Source of the DNA: an uncultured Pelagibacteraceae bacterium
Lineage (GTDB): Bacteria; Pseudomonadota; Alphaproteobacteria; Pelagibacterales; Pelagibacteraceae
DNA length: 64,000 nt
Reading direction: 5' to 3'
Assembly: GCA_902588895.1 (NCBI GenBank)
Contig: CACIRC010000001.1
Coordinates: forward strand, 81,948 to 145,947
Of the stretch, positions 22,266 through 59,713 are shown piece by piece. The notes below the pieces were generated by a model, which was given only the letters and a program-made list of their open reading frames with translations, was not told the origin of the DNA and searched no databases. The position numbers and the translations under genes are program-made. Each line of letters begins with the position of its first letter. Position 1 is the first letter of the stretch.

Positions 22266-23038
22266 TTTTTTAAAAATTCTAAAACCTTGTCCCTCATTTC
22301 AAATGCTTTTTCAATCATAATCATGTGGCCACAACCCTCTATTATATGTGTAGATGAATTATTAATTAGACTAGAAAATTTTTTTCCAGCTTCTAGTTTC
22401 ACCATCTTATCTAAAGAACCAAAAATTAGCATCGATGGAAATTCAATTAATTTAGCAGCATCAGAACCATTTTTGTAATTGTTACATGCAACAAGGTCTA
22501 CTGCCAGTATGTCTCTTATGTCTCTAGGTGATTGTATTATTTTCTCTACTGGGTTGCCTCCAATAAAACTTTTTGAACCTTCATAACCCCACTTCATCAT
22601 TAATTTAACAGCATCAGAGTCTCCATTTTTTGCTAGATCAATTAAATCTGGATGAACTGGCATCTTATTTGACCCTCCAATAAAAACTAACTTTTTTAAT
22701 CTATCTTTATATTTATGAGCATATTCAAGTATCTCCAAACAACCTTGAGAATGACCAATTAAAATTAAATTGTTTAAATTAAGTTTATTAAAAACCTGTT
22801 CTAACCAATCGGCTATTTTTTCAATACTATCTAAGCAAGGGCCATCTGAATTACCGTGTCCAGGTAAATCAATAGATAATACGTTAAAATTATTATTTGA
22901 AAAAAACTGCTCAGTTAGAGACCAAACAATATGCGAAAGACCACTTCCATGAAGAAATACTATTGTTTCTTTATTTTGATCAATACCCTGACCTGCATCA
23001 GACGCATAAACATTTTTATTTTCCAATTGAAAATTCAA
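22262..23038 (-). CDS. Alpha/beta hydrolase in the DMSP module
   Basis: This 258-residue protein has the alpha/beta-hydrolase fold. The oxyanion segment is [12 protein letters not shown] (about 28-39), [11 protein letters not shown] follows, the nucleophile elbow GHSQG is at 95-99 (Ser97), an acid lies after LIFGSLDKM, and the catalytic His is in [11 protein letters not shown] near residue 239. It is coded between dmdB (6 bp upstream) and dmdA (4-bp overlap), so it is co-transcribed with DMSP demethylation. Its substrate is unknown. A thioesterase or esterase role on a DMSP-derived intermediate is only an inference from context. Confidence 0.85.
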
Positions 23039-23044
23039 AATTAC

Positions 23045-32739: not shown

Positions 32740-32848
32740 TTACGCATAGCAGTAACGCACTAGTGGGCGAACCCTCGCTGACTAGTGTCGATCTCTTTGT
32801 TTCCAAAGACACCGCAAAGTTAATGTTTTTGCGGAAACGGCAACAACC
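32740..32848 (-). ncRNA. Structured leader RNA upstream of ffh (three hairpins)
   Basis: Reading toward ffh on the minus strand there are three hairpins. The first is a 7-bp stem CCGCAAA/TTTGCGG with a 9-base loop (32812-32834). The second is a 6-bp stem TCTTTG/CAAAGA closed by a GAAA tetraloop (32794-32809). The third is a two-part hairpin (32758-32787) with outer stem CACTAGT/ACTAGTG and inner stem GCGA/TCGC around GGGT. They end about 24 bases before the ffh ATG. This G+C-richer patch in A+T-rich DNA is consistent with a cis-acting leader or a small RNA. From memory, a candidate structured RNA before ffh was reported in Pelagibacter; I cannot confirm the match. Confidence 0.7.
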
Positions 32849-55340: not shown

Positions 55341-57211
55341 GATCTTTTTTGTAAAAAGCTAACAATTCCTCCAAATGATATTAGAATCACTGATAACCAG
55401 ATCCATAACATGAATGGTTTAACTTGATATCTTACGTTGAAAAAATCTTGATTTTGAACAAGATTAATTACAATAAATTTATCTGATATTAGAGTTGTTT
55501 TTATATCAGCTTCACTCGTGGCAATGACGGGTTGATTATAGATTCTCAACTCTGGTGAAAGTCTATCTTCTTCACCATTCGGGTTAATTATAGAAAAATT
55601 TGCAATAATTGAATTATAATTTTGTTCTTTTTTCTGATCAACACTCTCAAAAACTATCTTAGTTTTTGAATTTTCAAAAGTTTCACCAACTTTAAGATTT
55701 GTTATAATTTCACTTGCAAATAAGTTGTTAAACAAAATACTTAGGATTAATAAACTAAATCCAAAATGAGCAATATTTTGTGAAATATTTTTATATTTTT
55801 GTACAAAAAAATCTCTCAGCGTAATAAAAAATAAATAAAGTGCACTCGATATCAAAATTGTATTTATTAAAATATTTTGATTAAAATTTTTTAATACTAA
55901 AAATGCTAATAAAATTGAGATAATCAAAAAAGAAATCAAATATATTTTGTCTTCTAGTTGAGATTTGATCCATTTTAATTTTGGACCAATCGCCATCATA
56001 AATAAAAATGGAATTAAAAATGGTATCATTAATTTATGATAGAATGGTGGTCCAACTGATATTTTCTGAGAAGATATTACATCTAAAAAAATTGGATATA
56101 CAGTACCTATTAGAACAACTGATAAAAAATACATCATAAACCAGTTGTTAATTAATATTGTAGTTTCTTTGCTCAACCAAAAAAAATTATAAGATTTACT
56201 GTCATTATCTTTATGAAAAAAGAAAAATATTAAAATAGATAAAAAAATCAAAATAAATAAAAAAACCAGTATAAATAAACCCCTTTCAGGATCATTAGCA
56301 AATGTATGAACTGAATTTAAAATTCCTGATCTAACTAAAAATGTACCACACATACTTAATGTAAATGTTGCAATAGAAAGAATTATTACCCATGAGGTTA
56401 AAATAGATTTTTTCTCTAACACTAAGATGCAATGTAAAAGAGTGGTTAATGCAAGCCACGGCATTAAAGAAACATTCTCTACTGGGTCCCAAAACCAAAA
56501 ACCTCCCCAGCCTAATTCATAATAAGCCCAAATTGATCCGAGCAGTATTCCTAAAGTTAAAAATATCCATGAGATTAAGATCCATTTTTTTATATGAACT
56601 GCCCAATTGGTAGAAATAATTTTTAAACTCGTTGCTGCTAAAACCGAGGAAAATATAATTGAAGAACCTACATAACCTAAATATAAAATAGGTGGATGAA
56701 TTGCTAAAGCTGGGTCTTGTAAAATTGGATTTAATCCAAGACCTTCAGTTGGTATTGGAAAAATATAATTAAATGGATTTGACGTTAGGATTAAAAATAA
56801 AAAAAAACCAACTATTATTATTTGTTGAAAAACTAAAGTTAAAATTTTGTATTTAACTGGTTGATTTTTTGTCCGTACTAAAAATAAGAAAATAAATAAA
56901 GTTAAAACAAGTAACCATAACAATAAACTTCCTTCATGATTCCCCCAGGTTCCACTAATTTTATAAAATAATGGTTTTGTAGTGTGAGAATTATTAAATA
57001 CTGTTTCATTACTAAAATCTGAAACAATAAACGAAAAGATCAAACACAAAAAACTAATGCCAACAAAAAATAATTGTAAAAATGTAAATGATAATATTTT
57101 GGTATCTAATATATTTGAATTACTAAAATTTTTGTATGAAAAATAAAATAATGATAATCCAATAATTAATCCTAATATTAATGAATAAAATCCGACAAGA
57201 CTATAGATCAA
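55337..57211 (-). CDS. ccmF: Cytochrome c heme lyase CcmF
   Basis: This 624-residue membrane protein has about 14 spans. The signatures are WGNHEGSLLLWLLVLT, the WWD-domain GGFWFWDPVENVSLMPWLALT, and conserved His residues in loops (AIHPPILYLGY and LHCILVLE). A soluble periplasmic domain precedes the last span. It attaches heme to apocytochrome with CcmH. It is 1 bp after ccmE. Confidence 0.97.
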   Translation of the reverse strand: MIYSLVGFYSLILGLIIGLSLFYFSYKNFSNSNILDTKILSFTFLQLFFVGISFLCLIFSFIVSDFSNETVFNNSHTTKPLFYKISGTWGNHEGSLLLWLLVLTLFIFLFLVRTKNQPVKYKILTLVFQQIIIVGFFLFLILTSNPFNYIFPIPTEGLGLNPILQDPALAIHPPILYLGYVGSSIIFSSVLAATSLKIISTNWAVHIKKWILISWIFLTLGILLGSIWAYYELGWGGFWFWDPVENVSLMPWLALTTLLHCILVLEKKSILTSWVIILSIATFTLSMCGTFLVRSGILNSVHTFANDPERGLFILVFLFILIFLSILIFFFFHKDNDSKSYNFFWLSKETTILINNWFMMYFLSVVLIGTVYPIFLDVISSQKISVGPPFYHKLMIPFLIPFLFMMAIGPKLKWIKSQLEDKIYLISFLIISILLAFLVLKNFNQNILINTILISSALYLFFITLRDFFVQKYKNISQNIAHFGFSLLILSILFNNLFASEIITNLKVGETFENSKTKIVFESVDQKKEQNYNSIIANFSIINPNGEEDRLSPELRIYNQPVIATSEADIKTTLISDKFIVINLVQNQDFFNVRYQVKPFMLWIWLSVILISFGGIVSFLQKRS

Positions 57212-57212
57212 T

Positions 57213-57642: not shown

Positions 57643-57870
57643 TTAATTATTTGTTACGTTTGCTAAAATTTCTTTATTAATTCTTTGTGATTTTGCAGAA
57701 TTAGCTTGCTCAGTAGTAAGTGATCCAAATTTAGCAACAAATTTGTTTTGCTCTTTAACAAATTGCATTTTAGTTACCAAATATAAACCTAGGAAACTTG
57801 TTAAGGTAAAGCTAAAAGCAGATAACACATACACTGCATATCCATTCATAAAATGTAATTCATTTATCAT
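57643..57870 (-). CDS. ccmD: CcmD
   Basis: This 75-residue single-span protein (MNGYAVYVLSAFSFTLTSFL) has a charged C-terminal tail. The position between ccmC (4-bp overlap) and ccmE (10 bp) and the small size define it. In the Ccm system CcmD helps release holo-CcmE from the CcmABC complex. Confidence 0.87.
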   Translation of the reverse strand: MINELHFMNGYAVYVLSAFSFTLTSFLGLYLVTKMQFVKEQNKFVAKFGSLTTEQANSAKSQRINKEILANVTNN

Positions 57871-58574
57871 AATCTATCTAAGCCTTTATTTTTAATTTTT
57901 ATCAGTTCTGTATTATATTTCATTAAGAAAATTAACAATGAAAAAAGAGCAAATGCCGCAGTCATTATCAATAATGGGTAAAGCATTGATGAATGAATTG
58001 AACTTTTTGACAAAATACTAATAGATGCAGGTTGGTGAAGTGTATTCCACCAATCAACTGAATATTTTATTATTGGAACATTAATAATTCCTAAAATAGT
58101 TATAAAAGTTGAGATCTTGTAGACTTTTTCTTTCTTATCATAAATTCTCCATACAATTAAATACATTCCATAAAACAAGGCTAATATTAACATTGAAGTA
58201 ATTCTAGCGTCCCAAGCCCACCATGTTCCCCAAGTTGGTTTTCCCCAAATTGATCCTGTAACTAAAGCTATAATATTAAAAACAAATCCTGAAGGAGCTA
58301 AACTTTTAGAAATTAAAAAAAAATTTTTATTTCTAAATACAAAACCACAAATAGATAACAAAGTTATAGAAGAAAATATTCCAAGTGAAATCCAAGCAGC
58401 AGGAACATGAACATACATGATCCTAACTGCATCGCTTTGTTTATAATCTTCGGGAGATATGACTAATGCTTCAACTAAACCAACACTTAATACAACAATA
58501 AACAAAAATAAAACATACTTAGGTGCCTTTGAGGTGATTTTGAAAATTTTGTTAGGTTCAAAAAATTTAAACAT
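57867..58574 (-). CDS. ccmC: Heme delivery protein CcmC
   Basis: This 235-residue protein has six membrane spans, the WWD domain WGTWWAWDARITSMLILALF, and the two conserved periplasmic His residues (VHVPAAW and LHQPAS). It loads heme onto CcmE. It is the first ccm gene here; ccmA and ccmB, which usually precede it, are not in the window. Confidence 0.96.
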   Translation of the reverse strand: MFKFFEPNKIFKITSKAPKYVLFLFIVVLSVGLVEALVISPEDYKQSDAVRIMYVHVPAAWISLGIFSSITLLSICGFVFRNKNFFLISKSLAPSGFVFNIIALVTGSIWGKPTWGTWWAWDARITSMLILALFYGMYLIVWRIYDKKEKVYKISTFITILGIINVPIIKYSVDWWNTLHQPASISILSKSSIHSSMLYPLLIMTAAFALFSLLIFLMKYNTELIKIKNKGLDRL

Positions 58575-58753
58575 ATTTTAATTTAGAATTTTTTTGAATG
58601 ATTTCTATTATGAAATAGTTTTCTGATCAAGAATGCAGAGGGGAGATAATAAGATTAAAATTAACGTTTAACACTCTTGACCAGAAGATACTTAAAATTT
58701 AGCTAATTTATATGGCCTAGATTTGAGCTAAATGTGGTTGAATGATGGTTGCC
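58575..58753 (-). other. Longest intergenic gap: two inverted repeats upstream of ccmC
   Basis: This is the 179-bp region between hspQ and ccmC. The first dyad is ATTTAGCT/AGCTAAAT (58697-58704 and 58726-58733, 21-base loop), about 20 bases after the hspQ stop and followed by four T residues on the minus strand. The second is a 15-bp stem (58621-58635 with 58672-58686), with a 36-base pyrimidine-rich loop. Two A:C mismatches on the plus strand become G:U wobbles only on the minus strand, so an RNA would be read toward ccmC. No open reading frame of note lies here. Confidence 0.55.
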
Positions 58754-59074
58754 TTAATTAGAAAGCTTAAAATAACTAGAGCCCTTTTTTCCTGAAAAAA
58801 TCTCTTCAATTAAAGGGTGTTTTATTGGCTCATCAGAATCATCCATTAGCAAGTTTTGTTCAGAAACATAAGCTTCATAAGTTATCTCATCATTTTCCGC
58901 TAATAGGTGATAAAATGGTTGATCTTTTCTTGGTCTGACATTTTTTGGAATGGACTGATACCATTCTTCAGAATTATTAAATTCAAAATCAACATCATAA
59001 ATCACACCTCTAAATTCAAAGTGTTTATGTTTAACAATGTCTCCAATTGAAAATTTAGCTTTTTGAACTGGCAT
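58754..59074 (-). CDS. hspQ: Heat shock protein HspQ (hemimethylated DNA-binding family)
   Basis: This 106-residue YccV/HspQ-family protein has AKFSIGDIVKHKHFEFRGVIYDVDFEF (8-34), PFYHLLAENDEITYEAYVSEQNL and HPLIEEIF, matching the conserved beta-rich fold. In E. coli it stimulates Lon protease and binds hemimethylated DNA. It is a single gene, divergent from yciB with 87 bp between them. Confidence 0.93.
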   Translation of the reverse strand: MPVQKAKFSIGDIVKHKHFEFRGVIYDVDFEFNNSEEWYQSIPKNVRPRKDQPFYHLLAENDEITYEAYVSEQNLLMDDSDEPIKHPLIEEIFSGKKGSSYFKLSN

Positions 59075-59161
59075 TGAACTTAGTATGGGTATTTAGAAAT
59101 AAAAATCAATGCTAAAAATATAAATGTTTTGTGATGTGGCAAATATGTTAATATCTTTTAA

Positions 59162-59713
59162 GTGAATAAATCTTTTTTAAAATTTGTTACTGATTTCGGT
59201 CCTTTAGCAATATTTTTTTTCTATTATTACAATAGTGGTAAGAATTTATCAGTAGCAATACCTCCACTGATAGTTGCAACTTTAGTTGCATTAGCAGTAG
59301 TTTGGTTTTTTGAAAAAAAAATTCCACCAATGCCTTTGGTAAGTGGAATTTTAATTACTTTTTTTGGTGGATTAACAATCTACTTTAATGATCCTATATT
59401 TATTTATGTAAAACCAACTATCATCAATATTATGTTTGCTCTTGCATTATTTTTTGGGAAATATTTTACTAATGAACCTATTCTAAAAAAAATTATGGGT
59501 AAATCTATTCCTCTAACTGATATTGGTTGGGAAATTCTTAATAAACGATGGATGTATTTTTTCTTTGGTCTTGCTTTATTAAATGAAATTGTTTGGAGAA
59601 CTCAAACAGAAGAATTTTGGGTTAATTTTAAAGTGTGGGGAATGCTTCCAATAACAATAATATTTACAGGGTTTCAGATACCATTAATTAATAAACATAA
59701 GATTGATGCTTAG
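59162..59713 (+). CDS. yciB: Intracellular septation protein A family (YciB/IspZ), GTG start
   Basis: This 183-residue inner membrane protein has five to six spans. Diagnostic segments are KFVTDFGPLAIFFFYYY (7-23), FGKYFTNEPILKKIMGK, WEILNKRWMYFFFGLALLNE and IVWRTQTEEFWVNFKVWGM. The start is GTG (59162-59164); the family N-terminus fits this start. Its stop overlaps the DUF2794 gene start by 8 bases. Confidence 0.93.
   Translation: MNKSFLKFVTDFGPLAIFFFYYYNSGKNLSVAIPPLIVATLVALAVVWFFEKKIPPMPLVSGILITFFGGLTIYFNDPIFIYVKPTIINIMFALALFFGKYFTNEPILKKIMGKSIPLTDIGWEILNKRWMYFFFGLALLNEIVWRTQTEEFWVNFKVWGMLPITIIFTGFQIPLINKHKIDA

Follow-up and report, generated by a model that had tools for sequence, protein, structure and literature searches.

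We identified a candidate small RNA gene of SAR11 bacteria in the 179-bp gap between hspQ (58754..59074) and ccmC (57867..58574), its upstream and downstream neighbours, in the 64,000-nucleotide stretch of DNA that we analysed (hereafter the window). Among the matches to the window, the closest named relatives belong to the Pelagibacteraceae. Both genes lie on the minus strand, and both score above the respective NCBIfam cut-offs (TIGR02097 and TIGR01191). The gap holds a long covarying hairpin preceded by a promoter-like array of direct repeats. In the reading that we favour with moderate confidence, this is a small RNA gene driven by an OmpR/PhoB-family activator, with a loop that pairs with G-rich ribosome-binding sites. 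A response regulator of this family would bind four tandem half-sites and drive a -10 promoter; the RNA would start at the base of the stem and display a loop that mostly carries AUCUCCCUC on its 3' side; the long stem would, without Hfq, both shield the RNA and expose the loop; and the loop would pair with G-rich (GGGAG) ribosome-binding sites on its target mRNAs and so block their translation.

The initial annotation drew attention to this gap as the longest in the window. That rank was not established, as the gap came fifth in a crude ORF call (ATG starts, at least 50 aa). One of the four longer gaps is the window edge, a second (56614-57212) is filled by ORFs with TTG or GTG starts, a third (59075-59329) is shortened by such ORFs, and the fourth spans 22664-23044.

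The annotated pairing of 58621-58635 with 58672-58686 was confirmed, and an extra G-U pair (58671-58636) extends the stem to 16 bp, 58686-58671 with 58636-58621 on the minus strand. Folding and covariation place the 5' arm at 58671..58686 (minus strand); the 3' arm, TTCTTGATC, lies at 58621..58636 (minus strand), and the 34-nt loop between them (58637..58670, minus strand) holds a conserved pyrimidine motif. The pyrimidine loop described earlier is indeed present: 58647-58637 reads ATCTCCCCTCT, the motif AUCUCCCCUCU, which is AUCUCCCUC in most relatives, and the window's own loop carries an extra C (CUCCCCUCU). On the minus strand, none of 200 shuffles folded as well as either the whole gap (z = -3.6) or the 111 nt around the stem (z = -4.5). 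The stem is real, far beyond chance. Both of its imperfect positions are G-U when read as minus strand, as had been noted, and among 630 stem cells in an alignment of divergent SAR11 sequences, read the same way, we counted 70 G-U versus 8 A-C. Because G-U pairs far outnumber A-C mismatches, the functional RNA is the minus strand, in agreement with the earlier inference of an RNA read toward ccmC.

A second dyad (ATTTAGCT...AGCTAAAT) that had been placed between the stem and hspQ does occur in the window. It is no conserved hairpin, however, since the right half shows little conservation and the left half falls within the promoter block. On the other side, 3' of the stem, a block conserved within the genus (ATTTCATAATAG, 58605..58616, minus strand) may belong to a ccmC promoter or to the region where the RNA ends; it is not clear in genera without ccmC at the locus. 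TTTT follows the stem within 12 nt in only 17 of 45 rows and we saw no clear terminator, so that read-through into ccmC is possible.

We collected close relatives by a ccmC protein search, keeping the best 80 loci (L032-L111), and by a DNA search of 151 genomes of the genus, 106 of which gave some match, many of them short; the 29 best matches (L003-L031) were kept. The order hspQ-RNA-ccmC is found in all 109 loci. Gap length ranges from 162 to 195 bp with a mode of 179 (111 entries, namely the 109 loci plus the window and the copy in its source genome; 100 entries are distinct); the longest gap, in L061, has a short tandem duplication right after hspQ. Within the genus the promoter block, stem, loop motif and short block after the stem are conserved, and the final ~30 nt before ccmC are less so. 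The 3' arm is the same in 100/100 distinct close relatives. Among 36 non-redundant same-genus rows, only 2 of 504 cells in the inner 14 pairs are unpaired, and most stem changes are swaps between A-U and G-U.

More divergent copies were gathered with a model (R1) and by reading upstream of ccmC or downstream of hspQ in other genera. There the 3' arm is rewritten with compensation; the stem of L183, for example, reads GTCCAGTTTGAA...TTCAAACTGGAC and still pairs. The check for covariation that the initial annotation proposed was run on 45 divergent SAR11 sequences (alignment A2), and it showed a helix rewritten yet paired: 96.8% of 658 cells pair, double changes occur in 14 of 15 pairs (121 cells), and covariation is 0.632 compared with 0.336 in shuffled alignments. 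No shuffle among 500 matched the pairing, the cell count, the types or the covariation, and 2/500 matched the 14-pair count; these controls ignore relatedness, so that 0/500 is not a probability. Slid registers pair in 32-47% of cells. With whole arms shuffled, in a separately set register of 14 pairs, 119 double-change cells compare with a maximum of 66 in 5000 shuffles, which ignore relatedness too and give no probability. Across relatives the stem measures 12-19 bp and the loop 18-36 nt. CTCCC is kept in 42 of the 45 loops while the stem changes, and CUCCCT is absent from 7. The shortest loop, 18 nt in L164 (G351), has CUCCC reduced to ACCCUCU on a stem typical of the genus.

Upstream of the hairpin lies a putative activator site (58713..58750, minus strand) of four half-sites, with C at 58747, 58736, 58725 and 58714 in an exact 11-bp period. 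These C residues occur in 44, 45, 45 and 45 of 45 rows; the register was set by the three 45/45 columns (0, -11 and -22), and the -33 column (44/45) was left out. The first site is GCC in many other genera, whose arrays resemble GCC-N8-AAC-N8-TTC-N8-GAC. A putative -10 element, TAAATT (58696..58701, minus strand), begins 11 bp past the last half-site and is TATAAT-like in many relatives. Its TA, at +13/+14 from the last half-site, is conserved (T 42/45, A 45/45) in columns that did not set the register, and the best TATAAT-like match falls at spacing 11 in 27/45 rows. Judging by the -10 position, transcription is predicted to start at 58687..58692 (minus strand), that is, at the stem base, so that the RNA would begin with the hairpin.

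This layout fits that of a putative OmpR/PhoB-family activator site. In the pho box of Escherichia coli pstS, the last repeat and the -10 element are as far apart as in the SAR11 array. Direct repeats of 11-bp period also make up the Sinorhizobium meliloti ChvI motif N-GCC-N8-GCC (PMC9731502), and the OmpR-family CenR site, TGA-N8-TGA, consists of tandem repeats about one helical turn apart (PMC9275681). The S. meliloti form of the ChvI motif is close to our array, whereas the Caulobacter form, TTGC-N3-GCAA, differs from it. Two-component systems reported for HTCC1062 are PhoR/PhoB, EnvZ/OmpR, NtrY/NtrX and RegB/RegA, and a SAR11 kinase is listed as ChvG (PMC13198564); from those reported for SAR11, the candidate regulators would be ChvI/OmpR or PhoB. 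A search of seven same-genus genomes with one mismatch allowed found the promoter motif at the RNA locus in six (the G082 site fails the pattern) and at five other places, compared with five for a reversed control pattern. As the two counts are equal, no wider regulon emerged.

The RNA is widespread in the family. Model R1 matched 76 of 247 family genomes, 71 of the same genus and five of other genera, the latter outside its training set; the sample lists 76 same-genus genomes, so that five of these were misses. In a sample of the order, 146 of 247 genomes matched, all of them same-genus, out of 159 same-genus genomes listed. Conservation in close relatives, on which the initial annotation had staked its claim, therefore held when examined. 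Of the 13 same-genus misses listed, we checked five (G245, G283, G295, G330 and G367). All lack hspQ, four lack any ccmC match and the fifth has only a weak one (26%), which points to assembly gaps, or possibly to real loss; the completeness of these five genomes is 93-97%.

A second model, R2, matched 12 of 18 other-genus genomes at E < 1e-5, partly by construction, since it was built with rows from 16 of the 18. The hairpin stands directly before ccmC in five more genomes (G155, G157, G159, G169 and G172), and G168 gave no hspQ or ccmC match. Every other genus that we sampled (13 in all, g2-g14) has at least one copy. In eight genomes of the second family of the order (f2), the best E value was 0.286, and the one f2 match checked lies inside an ORF. 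Among 385 genomes from the wider Alphaproteobacteria, R2 matched four. Three belong to the same genus; the fourth, G657, is labelled outside the family and has an hspQ-RNA-ccmC contig that is SAR11-like by eye. The strict R2 filters missed G159 and G172, both of which have the RNA, so that absence from other Alphaproteobacteria is not proven by this count. Three model matches looked at elsewhere (L218, L219 and a second one in G082) fall in ORFs; by genome, the possible second copies placed in ORFs are those of G082 and the weak matches in G168 and G386. The RNA is single copy as far as checked. One strict pattern gave no match in viral contigs.

The unit of promoter and hairpin can lack one or the other of its neighbours and behaves as an independent gene. 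In four genomes from three other genera (G152, G158, G166 and G156; loci L156/L195, L192, L193 and L194), the unit follows hspQ and ccmC is not next. The next gene in L193 encodes a PagL-family protein (Pfam, above cut-off), followed by an FMN-dependent dehydrogenase closest to LldD, and the downstream genes in the other such loci look the same by eye. In G152, G158 and G166, ccmC lies elsewhere, by eye after ccmE, without the hairpin. Conversely, in G169 (L187) the unit precedes ccmC and an ABC-transporter permease replaces hspQ.

These arrangements bear on the idea that promoter and hairpin form a cis-acting leader of the ccm operon, a ccmC 5' UTR that tunes mRNA stability or translation. 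On the same strand, 46 nt separate the stem from the ccmC ATG, and the order is constant in loci L003-L111; moreover, ccmC mRNA rises about 10-fold in S-limited stationary HTCC1062 (PMC5069961), and ccmC is thus regulated at the transcript level in that strain. Yet four genomes keep promoter and hairpin before an unrelated gene, three of these have ccmC after ccmE with no hairpin, and the spacer from the post-stem block to the ATG is poorly conserved, all of which leaves such a leader rather unlikely. The initial annotation had offered a small RNA or a heme/cytochrome-responsive leader as a retained function; the small RNA half of that suggestion agrees with a functional minus-strand RNA, while a heme leader dedicated to ccmC does not agree with a unit kept after hspQ where ccmC is not next. 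A constant association with ccm genes was likewise not found.

The hairpin might instead be a generic 5' stabiliser, or its loop might bind a protein in place of an mRNA. Conservation of the loop motif is clearer than any mRNA target and the stem is free to vary, as this would lead one to expect; CsrB-type sponges, however, carry repeated copies of their motif, and here there is a single loop with no such repeats. We regard this as improbable. The near-perfect inverted repeat at the core could also suggest a protein-bound DNA site or a bidirectional terminator, but the excess of G-U over A-C on one strand, a loop length that varies from 18 to 36 nt and the scarcity of TTTT close behind the stem argue against these readings. 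Strand-biased wobble and covariation largely refute both, and we consider them very improbable. A small RNA gene under its own promoter remains our preferred reading.

With regard to known RNA classes, 6S RNA has a central bubble flanked by two long stems, and the hspQ-ccmC locus has one stem and one loop. The initial annotation had named 6S RNA as a family to check. Its covariance model (RF00013) matched neither the window nor 11 divergent loci; it also gave no match in the window's own genome (80% complete), and 5 of 14 control genomes matched. On these results we rejected 6S RNA as a reading. Searched with Rfam 15 at gathering score, the window yielded only the known ffh leader motif (RF01793), at 32750-32802 on the minus strand. 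At E up to 5 there were six sub-threshold matches in the window, none overlapping 58575-58753, and at E up to 1 there were none in the 11 divergent loci. Hfq gave no match in 21/21 genomes (the window's own, 12 of the genus and 8 of the sister family), and 5 of 14 controls matched. The small RNA probably works independently of Hfq; a diverged RNA chaperone in SAR11 is possible.

By analogy, the closest working parallel is ChvR of Caulobacter crescentus, described as an Hfq-independent small RNA that is driven by ChvI and pairs through stem-loops with the 5' UTR of its target, one site lying at -20 to -10 (PMC6237742). Both RNAs are short and intergenic, and the SAR11 RNA would likewise have a promoter of its own driven by an OmpR-family two-component system, act without Hfq and pair with target mRNAs. 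ChvR is 84 nt long, has at least three stem-loops, adjoins recF and represses the TonB receptor gene chvT (PMC6237742), whereas the SAR11 RNA, compared by description, has one long stem and an hspQ/ccmC neighbourhood. Neither the fold nor the recF neighbourhood of ChvR was found.

C-rich loops resembling an anti-Shine-Dalgarno sequence are also known from the alphaproteobacterial CcsR/cuckoo RNAs of Rhodobacter and its relatives. CcsR1-4 are clustered next to a DUF1127 gene, and the cluster has both a terminator and an RpoH promoter (PMC10253847); the SAR11 RNA, in contrast, is single copy with a different promoter, and its neighbours are hspQ and ccmC or a PagL-family gene, with no DUF1127 gene.

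A 2009 screen of 'Candidatus Pelagibacter ubique' recovered conserved candidate structured RNAs from long intergenic gaps (PMC2704228); the hspQ-ccmC gap is absent from its Table 1, which covers gaps of at least 26% GC, and from the motifs in the sections examined. We recognised no published description of an hspQ-ccmC RNA in the literature surveyed, mostly without full texts, and found none of a trans-acting small RNA in SAR11 in the literature searched. The RNA is ordinary in kind and, as far as searched, new as a family. With few transcription factors, SAR11 bacteria are believed to depend on control at the RNA level (PMC13198564). Here they have a defined small RNA candidate in every sampled genus of the family, and its covariation-backed structure and clear promoter make the regulator and targets directly testable.

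As for targets, the complement of the loop motif is GAGGGAGAU, and this includes the GGAG of ribosome-binding sites. Only two of 400 ORFs (400 kb of one same-genus genome) have a loop complement of at least 7 nt near the start. One encodes proteorhodopsin (Pfam, bacteriorhodopsin-like). The other, L245:16226 (G167:C1:276226), is a membrane-protein gene, a symporter by eye, that carries AAGGGAGAATATG; a 91-aa fragment of its product had no Pfam match. In the window, 0 of 59 ORFs has a 7-nt complement to the common loop form, which was used in place of the window's own CUCCCC form. Proteorhodopsin ranks second of 400 in duplex energy; however, in 14.5% of 200 loop shuffles it was equalled by no more than one of 60 sampled genes.

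The loop sequence CUCCCUC is exactly complementary to GAGGGAG, and this site stands ahead of the proteorhodopsin ATG in 25/25 same-genus copies, including that of the window's own genome (L266), and also in g14 and g4. In g12 and g7 the site is AAGGGAG and the loop CUCCCUU, so that loop and site differ together. Pairing is poor in g2, g5, g6, g9, g10 and g13. The f2 site is AAGGGGA, with AAGGGGAAA and AAGGGGAAT upstream of the ATG in two copies; in G387, also of f2, it reads AAGGGGAG, yet no RNA was found. The window's own genome gives a match of just 6 nt between loop and proteorhodopsin (shuffled-loop p 0.74), and p ranges from 0.028 to 0.743 by genome (21 rows, G185 left out). The longest run bypasses CUCCC in six of the 21 (G351, G151, G160, G156, G159 and G172), including the lowest p (G160). 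Proteorhodopsin gave no match in three of the 28 same-genus genomes searched, and G236 has a second, distant rhodopsin without the GAGGGAG site. On these sequence matches, it is doubtful that a two-component-driven small RNA controls proteorhodopsin; if true, such control would connect a nutrient or envelope signal with light-driven pumping in the most abundant bacteria of the ocean. In L252-L281 the proteorhodopsin ATG is preceded by GAGGGAGTTTTTT, and most copies also have a palindromic GTTTATATAAAC or TTTAAATTTAAA about 25-45 nt upstream, and this palindromic element is TTTGTTTAAACAAA in g7, g9 and g12.
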